From positions 62,001 through 126,000 of the forward strand of contig SSFR01000008.1 in assembly GCA_008015505.1 (NCBI GenBank): a stretch of 64,000 bases of DNA, written 5' to 3'. Origin of the DNA: Pedobacter sp. (GTDB taxonomy: Bacteria > Bacteroidota > Bacteroidia > Sphingobacteriales > Sphingobacteriaceae). Position numbers and translations under genes: made by a program. The notes beneath the pieces are model-generated. The model saw only the letters and a program-made list of their open reading frames with translations, ran no database searches and had not been told where the DNA came from. Below are positions 4,175 to 35,147 of this stretch, in pieces. Positions within the stretch are counted from its first letter, which is position 1. Every line of letters begins with the position of its first letter.

Positions 4175-5891
4175 GAATCATTGGCTGACTTATTATACGA
4201 ATACATTTCGACTAACCGTCTGCTGTATTCTTCTTTTACTGCACTCAGGCTCTTGTGTCAATGGACAGTTAGAACAAGACAATCATACGTATAAAAACGG
4301 GATGGTTGTTTCTGCCCATCCACTAGCATCAAAAGTAGGCCTCGACATCCTAAAAAAAGGCGGGAATGCCATTGATGCTGCTGTAGCTGTTCAATTTGCC
4401 TTGGCTGTTGTATATCCCAATGCAGGTAATATTGGTGGTGGCGGTTTCCTGGTTTATCGTTCTAAAACTGGGGAAACAGCATCACTTGATTACCGCGAAA
4501 AAGCACCGTCAAAGGCAAGCCATGATATGTACCTAGATACACAAGGAAACCCACTTGTGGATAAAAGCCTATATGGTCATTTAGCTGCTGGTGTACCGGG
4601 AAGCGTTGATGGCATGATCCGTGCACACCAACGATATGGCAAATTAAGCTGGGACCAGCTCATTCAGCCCGCTATTAATTTGGCAAAGAATGGTTTTTCA
4701 ATTACAAGTAAACAAGCCTCGGAACTCAACCAGTATGCAAAAGATTTTAAGAGGTATAACCCAGGCAAATCATATCTACAAAAAACCAGCCAATGGACAG
4801 TTGGAGACATTTTAAAACAAAGTGACCTAGCTTACACCCTTGAATTGATTCGTGATCAAGAGCGTGCTGGATTTTATGGTGGTGAAACAGCTGAGCTCAT
4901 CATCGCAGAGATGAAATCAGGTGGAGGACTTATTAGTAAAGAAGATCTTGAAAACTATCAATCCGTTTGGCGAACCCCTATTTCAGCGACCTACAAAGAA
5001 TATACAATTACCACTATGCCCCCACCTTCTAGTGGTGGAGTGGCACTGATCCAACTGTTAAAATCGATTGAGCCCTATCCAGTGAAACGATGGGGGTATA
5101 ATTCCGACTCCACCATCCAACTCATCACAGAGGCAGAACGTAGGGTTTATGCCGATCGAGCCACATATTTAGGAGATCCTGACTTTTACCCTGTCCCACA
5201 AAAGCAATTATTAAACCAAAACTATATCCATTCCCGGATGAATGATTTTAGTTGGAATAATGCTACTCCAAGTTCAACTATCAAAGCTGGCATTCTCCCT
5301 GTCGATGAACGGGAACAGACTACTCATTTCTCAATTGTAGATCGCTGGGGAAATGCCGTTGCCGTTACAACCACCCTCAATGGCTCATATGGGTCCAAAG
5401 TATTTGTAAAAGGTGCTGGCTTCTTATTAAATAATGAAATGGATGATTTCTCTGTAAAACCAGGAGCACCTAATATGTATGGTCTGATAGGTGGAGAGGC
5501 CAATGCCATTGCACCCAATAAACGTATGCTTAGCTCCATGACCCCCTCCATTCTCGCCAAAAATGGGGAATTATTCATGGTGGTTGGCACTCCAGGTGGT
5601 TCAACCATTATTACGTCCGTATTTCAAACAATTATTGATGTCATTGAATTTAATAAGAGCATGCAAAATGCGGTTAATGCCAAACGCTTTCATCACCAAT
5701 GGCTACCTGACGAAATTTTTGTGGAGAAAGGCGCTATTGACAGTCTAACCAAAATCAAGCTCGAGCAAAAAGGGTACAAAATCACCCAGCGTGCCCCAAT
5801 CGGAAGAGTCGATGCCATCTTAAAAAATCAGTGGGGCTACTACGAAGGAGGCGCCGACCCTCGGGGTGATGATACCGCACTAGGGTGGTAA
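4152..5891 (+). CDS. ggt: Gamma-glutamyltranspeptidase / glutathione hydrolase
   Basis: Periplasmic N-terminal nucleophile hydrolase that removes or transfers the gamma-glutamyl group of glutathione. The 579-residue precursor has a hydrophobic N-terminal segment (about residues 20-38) for export. The large-subunit start is typical (MVVSAHPLASKVG, ILKKGGNAIDAAVA). Autocleavage is expected before the Thr in the QTTHFSIVD block, which starts the small subunit and matches the catalytic-Thr region of E. coli Ggt; the GSTI and GGGG-type motifs are also kept. Start is either 4152 or the ATG at 4161; both overlap fadD, suggesting translational coupling. Confidence 0.93.
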   Translation: MRRMSIVKNHWLTYYTNTFRLTVCCILLLLHSGSCVNGQLEQDNHTYKNGMVVSAHPLASKVGLDILKKGGNAIDAAVAVQFALAVVYPNAGNIGGGGFLVYRSKTGETASLDYREKAPSKASHDMYLDTQGNPLVDKSLYGHLAAGVPGSVDGMIRAHQRYGKLSWDQLIQPAINLAKNGFSITSKQASELNQYAKDFKRYNPGKSYLQKTSQWTVGDILKQSDLAYTLELIRDQERAGFYGGETAELIIAEMKSGGGLISKEDLENYQSVWRTPISATYKEYTITTMPPPSSGGVALIQLLKSIEPYPVKRWGYNSDSTIQLITEAERRVYADRATYLGDPDFYPVPQKQLLNQNYIHSRMNDFSWNNATPSSTIKAGILPVDEREQTTHFSIVDRWGNAVAVTTTLNGSYGSKVFVKGAGFLLNNEMDDFSVKPGAPNMYGLIGGEANAIAPNKRMLSSMTPSILAKNGELFMVVGTPGGSTIITSVFQTIIDVIEFNKSMQNAVNAKRFHHQWLPDEIFVEKGAIDSLTKIKLEQKGYKITQRAPIGRVDAILKNQWGYYEGGADPRGDDTALGW

Positions 5892-11116: not shown

Positions 11117-12388
11117 TCAGGATTCTTGCTCCCAAATAATGGCTAACCGAATAATCGTTTCAACTGCTTTTTGCATATCCTGAACAGAAACCCATTCTTG
11201 TTTGCTATGGAAAGCATGTTCACCCGCAAAAATATTCGGACAAGGTAAGCCCATATAAGACAATCTAGAACCATCCGTACCCCCACGTATGCTTTGAAGT
11301 TTGGGGACTAAACCTACTTGCTCAATTGCCTTAAGCCCAAATGAAACCACCTGAGGATATTGATCCAATACCTTTTTCATGTTGCGATACTGCGCTGTTA
11401 CCTTAAACTCAAAAGTCGAATTAGGGTATCCTTGCATCACAGCCTCCACGATTGATTTTAATATTTGTTCGTGCTGCTTTAATCCTTCATCCACAAAATC
11501 ACGAATGATCAGATCGATACTAGCCTGCTCTACCGTTCCCTTGATGGCAATAGGATGGATAAAGCCCTCTTTCCCTTCCGTGTATTCTGGGGATAAACTC
11601 TCTTGAGGTAAAGCCGCTATAATTTCAGATGCTATTTTAATTGCACTTTCCATTTTGCCCTTAGCAAATCCGGGATGAGCACTGACCCCATGGATAACAA
11701 TCTCCACCCCATCGGCCGAAAAAGTCTCATTCTCGAGCGATCCACAGGTCTCACCATCAATCGTATAAGCAAAATCAGCTCCCAATTTTTGCAAATCAAT
11801 ATGATTAACACCCCTTCCAATCTCCTCATCAGGCGTGAACAGGATTTTTATCGTCCCATGCAAAACCTCGGGATGTGTCATGAAGAAATAAACAGCATCC
11901 ATAATCTCAGCCAACCCTGCCTTATTATCGGCACCCAACAGGGTTGTCCCACTCGCCGTAACCAAATCATTACCTATTTGCTGATTCAAATCAGGATGAT
12001 CTACCTGACGGATCACTTGTGTCGGATCATCAGGTAATACGATATCTTCACCCTGATAATTTCGGTGCACGATAGGTTTTACTCCTACTCCACTACAGTC
12101 GGGAGATGTATCCATATGTGAACAAAAGCAAATAACTGGTACTTTTTTACTCGTATTGGAAAGAATAGTACCATATACGTACCCAAATTCATCTAAATGA
12201 GCATCTACTACGCCCATTCCCTGAAGTTGTTGCACCAATAGTCTGCCCAGATTTTTCTGCTTATCTGTAGATGGGAAAGTAGATGAATGTGGATCGGATT
12301 GAGTATCGATCTGAACATATTCTAAGAATCGATCTAGAACTTTAGACGTATGTGTAACTATAGGCTGATTGTTTAAAATAGATTTCAT
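11117..12388 (-). CDS. pepT: Peptidase T (tripeptide aminopeptidase)
   Basis: Cytoplasmic M20-family zinc exopeptidase that removes the N-terminal residue of tripeptides. The 423-residue protein keeps the metal and catalytic motifs in order: SHMDTSPD (His and Asp), LLGADNKAGLAE (bridging Asp), DEEIGRG (catalytic and ligand Glu), VHPGFAKG-type dimerisation loop and the final EHAFHSKQEW with the C-terminal His ligand. RGGTDGSRLSYMGLPCPN is the PepT signature. The length is close to the usual 405-420. Confidence 0.94.
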   Translation of the reverse strand: MKSILNNQPIVTHTSKVLDRFLEYVQIDTQSDPHSSTFPSTDKQKNLGRLLVQQLQGMGVVDAHLDEFGYVYGTILSNTSKKVPVICFCSHMDTSPDCSGVGVKPIVHRNYQGEDIVLPDDPTQVIRQVDHPDLNQQIGNDLVTASGTTLLGADNKAGLAEIMDAVYFFMTHPEVLHGTIKILFTPDEEIGRGVNHIDLQKLGADFAYTIDGETCGSLENETFSADGVEIVIHGVSAHPGFAKGKMESAIKIASEIIAALPQESLSPEYTEGKEGFIHPIAIKGTVEQASIDLIIRDFVDEGLKQHEQILKSIVEAVMQGYPNSTFEFKVTAQYRNMKKVLDQYPQVVSFGLKAIEQVGLVPKLQSIRGGTDGSRLSYMGLPCPNIFAGEHAFHSKQEWVSVQDMQKAVETIIRLAIIWEQES

Positions 12389-12456
12389 ATTGCGGACTTA
12401 TCTAGAATTGACCTGATTCCTTTTAGTTACTATAATTTCATGAAATAAATTTTAAG

Positions 12457-13071
12457 CTACCCATGGATATGCTCTGTTTTCCCATAACGCTGAATCACGG
12501 CGGCTTCATAAGTCAAGAGTTCATCCCATCGCTTATCCACATCGATACCTTCCGCATATTGCTTAGCTAGTTTAATGAACAAAGTATAATGGCTAGCCTC
12601 GCTAATCATCAGCTCATAATAAAAATCGGCTAATTGTGGATCGTTGATGTGCTCCGACATCACCTTAAATCGCTCGCAACTCCGAGCCTCAATCATTGCC
12701 GAAATCAATAAACGATCAATCAATTGCTGCTCCCGACTACCGCCTTTGATCATGAATTGCAATAGCTCATTCACATAATGATCTTTACGTTCCCGACCTA
12801 AAGTATAACCGCGTTCGATTAGGATATCATGCACCCGCTTGAAATGATCCATCTCTTCCTGAACCAAAGCAACCATTTTTTGTACCAAATCCGTCAGATT
12901 TGGATTCTGAACAATTAGTGTAATGGCATTACTTGCTGCTTTTTGTTCACAAAAGGCATGATCCGTTAGGATTTCCTCAATATTACGCTCAACTACATTC
13001 TTTACCCATTGTGGATCAGTCGGCAGTTTGAGTTTCAACACCATCTTCTTTTTATCTAACTTCTCAACCAT
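12457..13071 (-). CDS. miaE: tRNA-(ms2io6A)-hydroxylase, MiaE-like
   Basis: Non-haem di-iron monooxygenase that hydroxylates the modified adenosine at tRNA position 37. Helical-bundle carboxylate and His ligands are visible: DHAFCEQKAAS (Glu), EEMDHFKRVH (Glu and ExxH), MIEARSCERF (Glu) and SEASHYTLF (ExxH). The track start at 13098 lies deep in nadD. The ATG at 13071 overlaps nadD by 8 nt and the one at 13044 follows it by 19 nt; either is plausible. It is translated directly after nadD. Confidence 0.88.
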   Translation of the reverse strand: MVEKLDKKKMVLKLKLPTDPQWVKNVVERNIEEILTDHAFCEQKAASNAITLIVQNPNLTDLVQKMVALVQEEMDHFKRVHDILIERGYTLGRERKDHYVNELLQFMIKGGSREQQLIDRLLISAMIEARSCERFKVMSEHINDPQLADFYYELMISEASHYTLFIKLAKQYAEGIDVDKRWDELLTYEAAVIQRYGKTEHIHG

Positions 13072-30225: not shown

Positions 30226-32610
30226 TTAGGTTGCTAGATTGTAATCGTTTACGGCAAGTAAAAGTGCTTCCGATACGGCGTCTTTAATACGTTCTTTACT
30301 TTCGGGTAAGCGTTCTACTTTGACGATAATGGTTTCCACTAATTTGTTGATGGTGAGACTGCGATTGCCGCTACTACGACTACTGTCTGAAGCTACGCCT
30401 AGTTTATCTGATTTAGACTGCGTATTTTTGGCCGAAGTTGCTGCGGCAGCTCCTAAATTGCTTAATTTGTTTTTTGCCTTATCTAACTTGGTATTATCAT
30501 TAGGGGCTTTTGGAGCTTCTTCCTTCGATGACGTTTTTCCCAACTTAGTCTCCACAAATCGCTGATAAGCCGCCGACTCATTAAAACCAGAAAGTTGAGC
30601 ATCAATTAAACCTCTTAGCTTAGACCACCTATCCTTAGTGATTAATGTTTTCAATTCTGGATCAGTAGCCAACTGGCGGTAGACTTCATCAATTTGTAGA
30701 TTAGATGCACCTGAAAGCAGTCCTGGTTGATATTTACCAGATTTAACCATGCCTTCGGTTATTGTACTAACAGCTGTAAAGAGCTTTGCGATATTCTTAT
30801 CACTCCCCCCTTTTTCAAATAGTACATCCGATATTTCTTTTTCCTTTTCCGTAACTTTTTTGACAAAAGCCTCTTTCTGTGTTTTCTCCGCTGAAAGTAT
30901 AATCGTTCGCTCAAGCTCATCGTTCGCTTTGCGTCGGGCTTTTTCGATGTCTTTTTCACTAGCGGCTTCCAATTTTTGATAATCTAACAATCCTGGATAA
31001 CGCGCATTCATCTCTTCGATTAGTTCCTTTCGTCGTTGTGATGCAGGATTGGTGCGCTGTAGCTGATCAAATAAATCATTAAGTCCCCTTTTTTCAACCA
31101 GTATTTGACTGTTCAGTTGATTAGACACTGTTTTTGCCATATCCTGATTTTTGGTATAGGCGGAGTAGGCTGTCGTTGCTGCAATCACTCCAGCTGTCAA
31201 CAAAAGAACTGCTCGAATAATAGCTCCTATGGGGTTCGCTGCCATTACTACGTTAAACACACGTTGTATGCCTGTCCATACTTTGGTAGCCATGGATGCT
31301 CCTGAGGTTGCTGATGCGTTTAGGCCTGTGGCGACTGTGTCTGCTTGGATAGCGGTTGTTTTTGTAAAAAGGCTTTTAGTGGCGTTCCAAACAGTAGTTA
31401 TGTATCGGCCACCAATAGTTTTAAACACATTTAAGCTAGAGGTCATTTGCCCTATTCCACTTGCCGCCAACATGGTAGCCTGAAATAAGGGGAGTGCATT
31501 TTGTGTTAAATTAAACAACCTGATTTTGAAATCATCAAAAATAGCTGTCACACGATTCATGCGTTCTTGATAAGATCCCATCACTACCTTAGCCTGATCG
31601 AAGGCAGTATTAGTACCCTGTATTTTGGTATTGTAATCATCAATCGCCTCACTGCCATTTATCAAAGCAATGGCTGCTGCAGCATTTTCTTTGCCAAATA
31701 GTTTAGTGATTAAAGCGGTATCATTGATAATTGGTTTTAATGCATTTAGCCGTGTCGTTAGTGGAATAGATTTATCTCCTAACTGAGCAATGCTTACACC
31801 AGCAGCTTCTAGCTCTGCTTTAGTCTGTTTCGGTAAAAAACGACCTTCACTTAAGGTACTCAGTGTATTGCGCAGAGCGACGCCACCTTCGGACCCTTTT
31901 TTACCTGCTTTATCTAAAACTTGTATAGCTGCATTAGTTTCCGAAAAGGTAACACCTGTGGTTTTAGCCACCATACCTACTTGCTCCAAAGCTGATTTAA
32001 TTTGAGGCAATTCGGCTGAGCCCTCTTTGGCAGCAGCAGCCATCACATTCATCATGTCAGCCATGGTCTTGCTCGCCTGCATTGGATCATCCAAGCTGAC
32101 ACCATATTGGTTCATGGCCGTCGTGAGGACTTCAGTTGCAGCAACTGTATTGCCCCCCATTGTCTTGGATAATATATTCACATGGTTACCCATCTCCTTC
32201 AATGCGCCTGAATTTTTTGCTATATCGGGCGATAATTGAGAAAGCAAGAGCTTATAACTCTCTACATTTTGAGCAGCATCTGTACCAAAAGATTTTGCAC
32301 TGGCACGTGCAGCATCGCTGATTTCACCTAAGGCTTTACCTGTTAAGCCTGTAATAGCTGAAAGGTCAGCCATTGATGAATTTAGAGCAATGCCTGGCTG
32401 TATCGCTCCATCTAAAGCAGACTTTAAATTACGGATGCCTTCAAATAATTGATTTGCGGACAATAATTTCTTCCAAGAATCCCCAAAATTTACAGTCATT
32501 TTTTGAGTACTCGCTGTTACTTGAGTGATATGCTGATTTAATGTGCCAAAAAAATTGATCGGCTTTACACTCAAATCAATACTGTACTGCAATCTATTGT
32601 TGTTATTCAT
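30226..32610 (-). CDS. Prophage tail tape measure protein
   Basis: Sets tail length and is ejected with the DNA. About 794 residues from the ATG at 32610 (MNNNNRLQYS); an ATG at 32637 would add nine residues and is less likely. The N-terminal half has the TP901-type core (SMADLSAITGLTGKALGEISDAARAS, NQYGVSLDDPMQASKTMADMMNVMA, GGVALRNTLSTL), then two hydrophobic stretches near residue 400 and residues 460-500, then long helical coiled-coil with Lys/Glu. Length relative to the contractile sheath is consistent with a short Mu-like tail. Confidence 0.9.
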   Translation of the reverse strand: MNNNNRLQYSIDLSVKPINFFGTLNQHITQVTASTQKMTVNFGDSWKKLLSANQLFEGIRNLKSALDGAIQPGIALNSSMADLSAITGLTGKALGEISDAARASAKSFGTDAAQNVESYKLLLSQLSPDIAKNSGALKEMGNHVNILSKTMGGNTVAATEVLTTAMNQYGVSLDDPMQASKTMADMMNVMAAAAKEGSAELPQIKSALEQVGMVAKTTGVTFSETNAAIQVLDKAGKKGSEGGVALRNTLSTLSEGRFLPKQTKAELEAAGVSIAQLGDKSIPLTTRLNALKPIINDTALITKLFGKENAAAAIALINGSEAIDDYNTKIQGTNTAFDQAKVVMGSYQERMNRVTAIFDDFKIRLFNLTQNALPLFQATMLAASGIGQMTSSLNVFKTIGGRYITTVWNATKSLFTKTTAIQADTVATGLNASATSGASMATKVWTGIQRVFNVVMAANPIGAIIRAVLLLTAGVIAATTAYSAYTKNQDMAKTVSNQLNSQILVEKRGLNDLFDQLQRTNPASQRRKELIEEMNARYPGLLDYQKLEAASEKDIEKARRKANDELERTIILSAEKTQKEAFVKKVTEKEKEISDVLFEKGGSDKNIAKLFTAVSTITEGMVKSGKYQPGLLSGASNLQIDEVYRQLATDPELKTLITKDRWSKLRGLIDAQLSGFNESAAYQRFVETKLGKTSSKEEAPKAPNDNTKLDKAKNKLSNLGAAAATSAKNTQSKSDKLGVASDSSRSSGNRSLTINKLVETIIVKVERLPESKERIKDAVSEALLLAVNDYNLAT

Positions 32611-32626
32611 TATTATATTATATTTG
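32597..32626 (+). promoter_or_regulatory. Consensus promoter for the plus-strand small gene inside the tail operon
   Basis: TTG at 32597-32599 and TATATTTG at 32619-32626 are separated by exactly 19 nt. The -33 element overlaps the start of the tape measure gene on the other strand. Predicted transcription start is near 32633, 13 nt before the ATG at 32646. Confidence 0.7.
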
Positions 32627-32645
32627 GCAATTAACACATTACCCC

Positions 32646-32852
32646 ATGGAGGAAATTATTGCGTATTTGGCACTTTTAATAGGTCTTGTCTTTGGAGTTG
32701 CATGCTGGTGTTTTCTTGAAAGTATAGGAACAGAATCTAGCTGTGGTTGTGACTGCCCTTGCAACTGTAGTAACAAACAAAATGTCAACCAACCAAAATA
32801 CACTGCCTATACTATCATAGATGGCAAAAACACATCCTCCACCAAGCTTTAA
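32646..32852 (+). CDS. Small membrane-anchored Cys-rich protein, prophage moron candidate
   Basis: Encodes 68 residues. One hydrophobic helix (about 4-24) ends in cysteines, followed by a Cys-rich segment (CGCDCPCNC) and a polar tail. It is on the plus strand between two minus-strand tail genes and has its own near-perfect promoter, so it could be expressed in the lysogen when the late genes are silent. The N-terminus is acidic (MEE), which is unusual for a signal peptide. No family is recognised. Alternatives are an anti-phage or superinfection-exclusion protein, or a chance frame; the promoter favours a gene. Confidence 0.6.
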   Translation: MEEIIAYLALLIGLVFGVACWCFLESIGTESSCGCDCPCNCSNKQNVNQPKYTAYTIIDGKNTSSTKL

Positions 32853-32858
32853 CAAACA

Positions 32859-33373
32859 TTATTCCTCATCCGCCCTAAACAACTTTACCATCATTTCCGC
32901 CTGATTTCGCAAACGCCAGCTTTCCAGCCAATGCGCTTTGGCGTATAAATCAGCCCACTCAGACAGTTGCAATTTTGTAGGATTGATACCGAATTGTGCC
33001 ATAATTAATGCAGTACCCTGTCCTATAAAATTGTCTTCTGATTCGAGTAGGCTTATAAGTTTTTTGAGATGGTGCTCAAGGAATTCATCCGTTCGCCAAT
33101 CGCTTTAATGACTTGGAGCTTTAGTAGCGCTCGTTTTTCGATGGCAGCATCTTTTGCTAATACACAATTATCATATAAAGCTATTGAAGCCTTCATCTCA
33201 TCTGATTTTCCAATGGTTGCTGATGCTTGAATGACGTCCATACTTGGTTCTTTGCATACCGCTTTGTACTCGCCAGCTTCATCAACCACACTTACTAAAA
33301 ATAGTGCGCCATGTTTAGTCTTTAGTTCATTGATTTGATCGGGCGTTAAGCCACATATTAATTCATTTTCCAT
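32859..33373 (-). CDS. Tail assembly chaperone, long form made by -1 frameshift
   Basis: The upstream frame ends at 33053, but a classic slippery heptamer A AAA AAC lies at 33059-33065 (minus strand), two codons before the stop. A -1 shift continues the protein for 66 residues to a stop at 32859, passing through SLLESEDNFIGQG, QFGINPTKLQLSEWADLYAKA and LRNQAEMMVK. This extension would otherwise have no start codon. Tail chaperones of Mu and lambda (gpG/gpGT, gp41/gp42) are made by this kind of shift, with the long form binding the tape measure protein. The two forms would be 106 and about 171 residues. Confidence 0.85.
33053..33373 (-). CDS. Tail assembly chaperone, short form (Mu gp41-like)
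   Basis: Encodes 106 residues: MENELICGLTPDQINELK at the start, then CKEPSMDVIQASATIGKSDE and a helical C-terminus ending STISKNL. It lies between the tail tube and tape measure genes, the fixed position for chaperones of this class. The untranslated leader carries short repeats (see 33371-33508). Confidence 0.8.
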   Translation of the reverse strand: MENELICGLTPDQINELKTKHGALFLVSVVDEAGEYKAVCKEPSMDVIQASATIGKSDEMKASIALYDNCVLAKDAAIEKRALLKLQVIKAIGERMNSLSTISKNL

Positions 33374-33510: not shown

Positions 33511-33945
33511 TTACTTATTCCAAACAATATTCGAAACCAACAACTCCAGTTCCACTTGATTTTTCATATCACCCTCTTTCCAATCACGACTTTGCTTTTT
33601 GAATTCACAATTTTTAAGCACATCACGAATGATAGGGCCACTTTCAGGCTGGTACGTTACGGTGATGGTAAATGGTGCCAAACGGTGCAATTGGCCATCT
33701 CGAGCTGTGGCAGCTAAAGCCACTACTGTTTCTACTGAAAGGGTAATCGATGCCGAAGCCTTTACTCGACCATACCCACGCGCTACCGGATAACGACCTG
33801 CTCCATATACGTCTTCCTTTTCCTGATCTTCTTCATATTTTATTGCCGTAATACCTGTTACCGGTAATGCACCCACTGTTACAATAATGTCGCCCCAGCC
33901 GTACGAACGACCGTTAATTAAAGGGCTTGCTTCTAATGCTGCCAT
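33511..33945 (-). CDS. Prophage tail tube protein (Mu gpM-like)
   Basis: Encodes 144 residues, mostly beta-strand. SYGWGDIIVTVGALPVTGITAIKY at the start and the strands EEDQEKEDVYGAG and ASASITLSVE match the small tube proteins of Mu-like tails. It lies immediately downstream of the sheath gene, separated by 2 nt, the standard pairing in contractile tails. Confidence 0.78.
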   Translation of the reverse strand: MAALEASPLINGRSYGWGDIIVTVGALPVTGITAIKYEEDQEKEDVYGAGRYPVARGYGRVKASASITLSVETVVALAATARDGQLHRLAPFTITVTYQPESGPIIRDVLKNCEFKKQSRDWKEGDMKNQVELELLVSNIVWNK

Positions 33946-33947
33946 GT

Positions 33948-35147
33948 CTATTCTTCTATTTTAAGTGTAAAACCAATACTTACTTTAATTTCGCGCAACA
34001 CACCTACTGGAATCAGCTTCACCACTACCGCTAGTTTGGAAGTGCCTAATACCGATTGGTTCGGGTCAATAATTACTTTGAAACCACTCAACTCGCCATC
34101 GCGTTCCATGCGAACAAGGGTGTCTTCGGCTAGGGTTTCTAAAAAGGTGATGTTGCCTACCGATATTTTTCCTGTGCTGGCATCCACGCGGATCGGGCCA
34201 CTCAGGTGAGGCAATAAGGCTTTGTAAATTCCGCGTACTGCTTTGTCGATCGTTCTGTTATTTTCGATGTAACCGTAATCACTTTCTGGCTTGTCCGCAG
34301 TGAAACTATCGTTCCAATAGCTACCTGCTTGCCCTACATGTTTGCATAAAAACAAATACCGTTTTCGATTAATTGCATCCTGTTCAGTAGGTGTCAATTC
34401 ACTCATCAAGGTGCCATCTACTAAAGCAGCTACGTCTAATTCTTTAGCTAGGTTTTGAGGAATTCTACCCATTGATGCCCCAGTATAAGTTGTACTTACC
34501 ATGTTTTGCTTTTCAACCCAAGCAATACTTTCGTGCACTTTGGCGCGTGCAATGGCACCCATGCAGGCTCCAATAGCAGTAATGACAGGTTTTTCGGCAC
34601 CTCCTTTTTGTAGATGAGCACCTAAACCTCCACCGTCTTGAGCAATGCATATTGACACGCGAGGATGTGCATTGTCTCCTAAATTGGGTAGAGCCTTCAA
34701 CTCTTCCGTCGTTAAACGATAAGCAATCACGGCCGATAATGGCATATTCATGGCCGCTAAATCTTCACATGCTTTGTTTAAGTTTTCGATATGAACGGTA
34801 TTCTTATGACCAGCCCATACACCCACCTGACGAATCGCGCCAGCAGCCTGTTGTTGCATGCTTTTTACTTCTTCAAACTTTCCATCATATTTGCTATCAG
34901 CCACCGCACGTACTAACAATCGGCTACCCGCTGCCACACGGAAAAACTCGGCAATGTGATAGTACGCAATCGGCGTTTTAGCCATTGATACTTTGTTTCG
35001 TTCCGCGTCTTCCAAACTGTATACGTCTAGCTGTTCGGGTAAATGAGTAGCCTCGGCCCCGTAAAATAGCAAGGCCGATACATGATCCTCGCCTTCAACT
35101 CGACGGTTTAAGCCGCCTTGTTCTCTTTGAAATGTGATTCCGTTCAT
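33948..35147 (-). CDS. Prophage contractile tail sheath protein (DUF2586-type)
   Basis: Encodes 399 residues. The protein forms the contractile outer sheath around the tube. It has the N-terminal domain with FYGAEATHLPE, the middle domain SAVIAYRL...PRVSICIAQDGGG and the C-terminal domain with GDSFTADKPESDYGYIENNRTIDKA-like content (WNDSFTADKPES, YIENNRTIDKAVRG, PHLSGPI). This is the pattern of DUF2586 sheaths of Bacteroidota transposable phages rather than Mu gpL itself. A contractile (myovirus) tail follows. Confidence 0.8.
   Translation of the reverse strand: MNGITFQREQGGLNRRVEGEDHVSALLFYGAEATHLPEQLDVYSLEDAERNKVSMAKTPIAYYHIAEFFRVAAGSRLLVRAVADSKYDGKFEEVKSMQQQAAGAIRQVGVWAGHKNTVHIENLNKACEDLAAMNMPLSAVIAYRLTTEELKALPNLGDNAHPRVSICIAQDGGGLGAHLQKGGAEKPVITAIGACMGAIARAKVHESIAWVEKQNMVSTTYTGASMGRIPQNLAKELDVAALVDGTLMSELTPTEQDAINRKRYLFLCKHVGQAGSYWNDSFTADKPESDYGYIENNRTIDKAVRGIYKALLPHLSGPIRVDASTGKISVGNITFLETLAEDTLVRMERDGELSGFKVIIDPNQSVLGTSKLAVVVKLIPVGVLREIKVSIGFTLKIEE

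Follow-up and report, generated by a model that had tools for sequence, protein, structure and literature searches.

The window, i.e. the whole 64,000-nucleotide stretch of Pedobacter DNA that was analysed, contains a prophage with Mu-like head genes (Portal_Mu and a Mu F-like protein). A preliminary description made from the letters alone had placed the gene studied here between the tail tube and the tape measure, and the Pfam and PHROG matches of its neighbours bear this position out. The same order of tube, chaperone and tape measure is present in the records of Winoviridae phages. The features of the locus are as follows.

33948..35147, minus strand: tail sheath (DUF2586; PF10758, 7.6e-45; PHROG 907 tail sheath, 2.4e-40)
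33511..33945, minus strand: tail tube-like protein, the upstream neighbour (PHROG 4579 tail protein, 1.2e-21)
33053..33373, minus strand: 0-frame open reading frame of 106 residues, putative gpG-like tail assembly chaperone in its short form (direct reading, AlphaFold2, structure matches, PHROG 19076)
33059..33065, minus strand: slippery heptamer A AAA AAC in the phase X XXY YYZ, with A_AAN at the equivalent place in 110 of 121 relatives
33053..33055, minus strand: 0-frame stop TAA, one sense codon past the heptamer, the slip-to-stop distance being equal in 110 of 121 relatives
32859..33059, minus strand: putative -1 frame extension (gpT-like), 66 codons plus stop (open frame, homologues in relatives, dN/dS, AlphaFold2)
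32952..33053, minus strand: RNA structure predicted to stimulate the shift, which lies within the extension and begins 5 nt past the heptamer (folding and family arm-swap)
33053-33044 with 32961-32952, minus strand: predicted basal 10-bp stem of this structure (folding)
30226..32637, minus strand: tape measure protein, the downstream neighbour (PF10145, 2.7e-22; PHROG 28, 6.1e-30)

Reading frames and protein products

Direct reading of the 106-codon frame (33373..33053) gives the terminus tcA AAA AAC tta TAA, in accordance with the heptamer and its frame as first described (33065-33059). The heptamer had been set two codons before the stop; it is near the stop indeed, but a single sense codon (TTA) separates it from the TAA. 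No stop interrupts the -1 frame between 33104 and 32861-32859, where it ends, and from the slip (CTT) it comprises 66 codons; the product fused by a -1 slip at the heptamer is computed at 171 residues; both lengths had been anticipated. The statement that the extension has no start of its own holds near the junction but not further in, where ATG codons occur at 33002, 32894 and 32891, the first of them 19 codons into the extension and not kept as ATG in the aligned relatives. The 194-bp gap said to be otherwise devoid of genes turned out to be the extension itself (33052-32859), and a further 221 bp separate it from the tape-measure frame, whose listed GTG start is at 32637. The intervening stretch carries an opposite-strand ORF of 68 residues (32646-32852, plus strand), whose N-terminal half is hydrophobic and which also has a Cys-rich stretch.

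No fitting chaperone model was found for the short product in Pfam or NCBIfam, and low sequence similarity is a known trait of tail assembly chaperone families (PMC5009743). The short product belongs to PHROG 19076, a family of unknown function that accounts for 56 of 57 members. Its AlphaFold2 model, built from 57 sequences, is confident (pLDDT 92.6), and VIA-align matched it to RBSTP2171 (3fgx, Z = 9.5), HK97 gp13 (2ob9, Z = 6.5) and YqbN (3klu, Z = 5.9), the next unrelated row having Z = 3.7; 3fgx was also matched by sequence profile (E = 3.4e-5). The middling scores to 2ob9 and 3klu are supportive of a chaperone fold in the modelled short product rather than conclusive. The extension is modelled as helical (pLDDT 89.3); no similarity to a named T domain was detectable and the fold search gave weak matches only.

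The window has 123 stop-to-stop frames that reach 80 codons or more; 7 of them have an in-phase canonical heptamer near the stop, and such a heptamer followed by a long -1 extension is found only in the chaperone ORF and in an antisense T run (37748). The decisive evidence for the putative frameshift site is its conservation, rather than such single-site odds.

Conservation of the two-frame arrangement

The 2.34-Mb genome holds three more prophage copies (contigs C3, C13 and C16) in which both halves stand in a -1 relation. These siblings and one IMG/VR phage have, at an equal distance from the stop, a slip site that reads either A AAA AAC or A AAA AAA, and the extensions are homologous. Taken together, contigs C3, C9, C13 and C16 of this assembly (G000) represent four related prophage copies of the chaperone gene in one genome.

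Bacteroidota genomes and IMG/VR were scanned with profiles and patterns for further relatives; Bacteroidota here designates the named hosts and the genomes searched, rather than each host of the IMG/VR contigs. The 146 processed loci were reduced to 128 by the removal of identical regions and to 121 by dropping seven truncated or ill-placed ones; they make up 70 clusters at 70% identity and 33 clusters at 50%. At the outset, three things in related phages had been named as signs against a programmed shift, namely a missing heptamer, a -1 frame interrupted by stop codons and an extension with its own start; the relatives point the other way on each count. The slip site stays in place, some loci keeping only A_AAN: the pattern A_AAN-NNN-stop was found in 110 of the 121 distinct loci and in 62 of the 70 clusters at 70% identity. 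In 120 of the 121 loci the -1 extension runs for 40 codons or more without a stop, and its protein is homologous, a count to be read knowing that the A2 viral scan is biased toward loci that keep the extension, because it searched with two patterns of which one was a T motif (A1 and A3 relied on the first half only). Any ATG in the -1 frame between the upstream stop and 18 codons past the slip is present in only 22 of the 121. The remaining 8 of the 70 cluster representatives have no A_AAN at the usual slip-to-stop distance; in L144, L146, L149, L154 and L157 the -1 extension is open, yet A_AAN is absent at that distance.

The slip sites are of two kinds, a tandem A AAA AAN and a tetramer-only kind, e.g. 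G GAA AAG, G GTA AAG or C GTA AAG. In the latter, the P-site codons nearly all end in A (Val GTA in 29/29 against a background of 33%, Glu GAA in 24/26, Ala GCA in 3/3; backgrounds for the three amino acids 28-66%), which means that the slip tetramer itself is under synonymous selection. In close pairs, dN/dS ranges from 0 to 0.24 in the extension and from 0 to 0.13 in the first half, and it is 0.24-0.26 for the extension of the window compared with siblings C3 and C16. These ratios indicate that the extension is under purifying selection. The fourfold-site difference amounts to about 0.49-0.60 over most of the first half and 0.42 in its last eight codons. In the extension it is 0.19-0.37 for the initial 35 codons and 0.51 beyond them; the depressed synonymous change coincides with the region of the predicted RNA structure.

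Two other readings of the split can be weighed against these data. One is that a frameshift mutation or an assembly error has broken a single ORF, since the split falls in a homopolymer, which is prone to indels and errors. Yet the split is equal and equally placed in 110 of 121 distinct loci, isolate phages included, and both halves are under purifying selection; conservation refutes this reading, whose probability is negligible. The other is that the extension is a separate gene with its own start, translated by reinitiation or coupling. It would find such a start in the ATG at 33002 of the -1 frame, and GenBank gives an internal start of this kind in lotta8-1 (gp39). Nevertheless, the -1 frame of the window has no ATG, GTG or TTG from the upstream stop (33104) to 33002, the tested interval has any ATG in few relatives (the 22 mentioned above), the homology begins right at the slip and the slip tetramer is under synonymous selection. 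The placement of the predicted RNA structure at frameshift spacing also speaks against a separate gene, which we regard as very improbable.

RNA signals around the slip site

A stem some 5-8 nt past the heptamer, as in dnaX-type signals, is predicted in the window, where a stretch of 129 nt folds at -38 kcal/mol (z = -4.1), a value equalled by 1 of 200 shuffles. A 98-nt fold missed the basal stem of the window, whose partner sits 104-113 nt from the first heptamer base. Across the 70 representatives, downstream folding beats synonymous shuffles that preserve the -1 protein, with z = -8 (+13 to +53) and z = -13 (+31 to +91), though these z values ignore shared ancestry and the control positions of an arm-swap comparison are the better yardstick. 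The 5' arm begins 5-7 nt past the heptamer in most representatives and pairs either locally or with a partner at a distance of roughly 75-100 nt. RNAalifold found no consensus structure in 47 gapped sequences (A4 alignment), perhaps because the partner arm varies between lineages, and the arm-swap test was therefore used instead: the segment +12 to +24 pairs much better with its own downstream sequence than with those of other representatives (z = -14.7), against z = 0 to -4.9 at six control positions. Covariation in the named long-range helix is moderate (16 double-change cells against 7.6 expected, reached in 0 of 500 shuffles), and 77% of its cells are paired against 26-47% when it is slid. 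An apparent association of weaker slip sites with stronger structures vanished once GC was allowed for.

Upstream of the slip site, complementarity to the anti-SD is far stronger in the 8-mers whose last base lies 4-7 nt ahead of the heptamer than in synonymous shuffles (averages of about -4.1 and -2.6 kcal/mol, respectively; z near -7.5), and no position between -60 and -9 falls below z = -4. By cluster, the SD-like element is supported with Wilcoxon p = 5.8e-6 at 70% identity (n = 70) and 8.8e-4 at 50% (n = 33). SD tetramers occur at 41% of the slip sites of cluster representatives, against 1% of the chaperone starts and 8% of the other starts of the same loci, and the last base of the SD-like core (GAGG) mostly lies 7 nt ahead of the slip site. 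In the window copy the element is absent (best value -1.9 kcal/mol), and so is the SD part of a dnaX-type signal, whereas siblings C3, C13 and C16 have GGAGGG upstream of the slip site; the frameshift rate of the window copy may be low for that reason. The 16S rRNA was not found in the G000 assembly, so that its anti-SD could not be read. Actual pairing of the SD-like element with downstream mRNA was considered and rejected (own-versus-swapped z = 0.0, offset -27). In the siblings (L008, L010 and L011, respectively from C3, C13 and C16), the upstream GGAGGG is complementary to a CCTCCC a short way downstream. The latter pairs with a second GGGGAGG as well, which makes a two-hairpin switch around the slip site possible.

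Bacteroidia generally ignore the SD and yet commonly retain an SD-containing frameshift site in prfB (McNutt et al. 2021, PMC8710568), which makes it plausible, though unproved, that another recoding site draws on the anti-SD as well; beyond prfB, the literature examined holds no other example of an SD at a recoding site in SD-ignoring Bacteroidia. We lean slightly towards the view that these phages of Bacteroidota, whose hosts hide the anti-SD and whose starts lack an SD, have a selected SD-like element at the chaperone slip site. If it pairs with rRNA, ribosomes paused in elongation by the stem would expose their anti-SD, which would be exploited for -1 frameshifting.

The signals bear on a further alternative, in which the long form arises because RNA polymerase, not the ribosome, slips on the A run. 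The window does have a run of six A. Many relatives have just three or four (GGTAAAG, GGAAAAG), fewer than the 8-9 usual for transcriptional slippage, which argues against this process in those relatives, and the A_AAN phase, the RNA structure and the SD-like element point to the ribosome; transcriptional slippage is thus extremely improbable.

Proposed mechanism and known systems

The preliminary description had proposed a programmed -1 frameshift in the tail assembly chaperone, and both the conservation in relatives and the predicted fold argue for it. We estimate at roughly 94% the probability that this chaperone gene of a Mu-like prophage makes two proteins via programmed -1 ribosomal frameshifting; what we infer from sequence is the slippage itself, how often it happens and what G and GT do. 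Most ribosomes would read through to the TAA (33055-33053) and release the short form of 106 residues (G). A minority, stalled by the stable RNA structure 5 nt downstream, would slip by -1 on A AAA AAC and make the GT protein of 171 residues, the T part of which would form a domain of helices. If lambda is a guide, the tape measure protein may be coated by G and GT, with T bringing in the tube subunits.

The slip site of lambda is G GGA AAG, whereas that of the prophage family is A AAA AAC or A_AAN, with a fixed one-codon distance to the stop and a long structured downstream RNA. The Pedobacter prophage has no sequence match to a named chaperone family. As in lambda gpG/gpGT (Xu, Hendrix and Duda 2004; PMC5009743), its gene is flanked by those for the tube and the tape measure, and it would give a short product and a long one by a -1 shift shortly before the short ORF ends. 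Mu-like head genes bring the prophage close to phage Mu, but the tail genes of Mu use a -2 shift (PMC5009743) where the proposed shift of the prophage is -1, and no named Pfam chaperone model was matched. The predicted fold of the short product resembles those of HK97 gp13 (2ob9), YqbN (3klu) and RBSTP2171 (3fgx), with an identity of only 8-19%.

In E. coli dnaX, an SD lies about 10 nt upstream of the slip site and a hairpin 6 nt downstream (PMC11162774, PMC5600365). The relatives similarly have an SD-like element ahead of A AAA AAG or A AAA AAC and a stem behind it, but their SD-like core mostly stands closer to the slip, the stem is often long-range, their hosts rarely use the SD and the window copy is without the SD-like part. 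Bacteroidia prfB (PMC8710568) also shows an SD-like sequence where recoding takes place, in a phylum whose anti-SD is hidden; there, the shift is +1, at a stop codon and in a host gene, whereas in the chaperone it would be -1, at A_AAN and in a phage gene.

The gpG/gpGT kind of gene is already known; the lineage, the long RNA element and the SD-like element of the relatives are new as far as the examined material shows. A function can be proposed for the unlabelled family PHROG 19076. In the Winoviridae phages examined (Peternella_1, lotta8-1 and FPSV-S1), A AAA AAG stands one codon before the stop and the second half, the extension, is unannotated or assigned an internal start; the examined publications on these and related phages do not mention a chaperone or a tail frameshift. 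The family also offers more than 100 natural variants of one frameshift signal, slip sites with only the A_AAN tetramer included, and its SD-like element raises the testable question of whether Bacteroidia ribosomes that ignore the SD in initiation can use their anti-SD in elongation.

A different arrangement is seen in genus g29 (Bacteroidota), where a short chaperone and a single-frame long form are two separate genes about 8 kb apart, e.g. at 4578-4922 and 12179-12649 (minus strand) of locus L199 (G509:C1:2368500-2384500). The same holds for L031-L035 and L042-L046, which lack the two-frame arrangement and do not belong to the 121 loci. A tape-measure-sized frame was not seen in the sheath/tube/baseplate cluster of g29, which possibly encodes a contractile particle instead of a phage.
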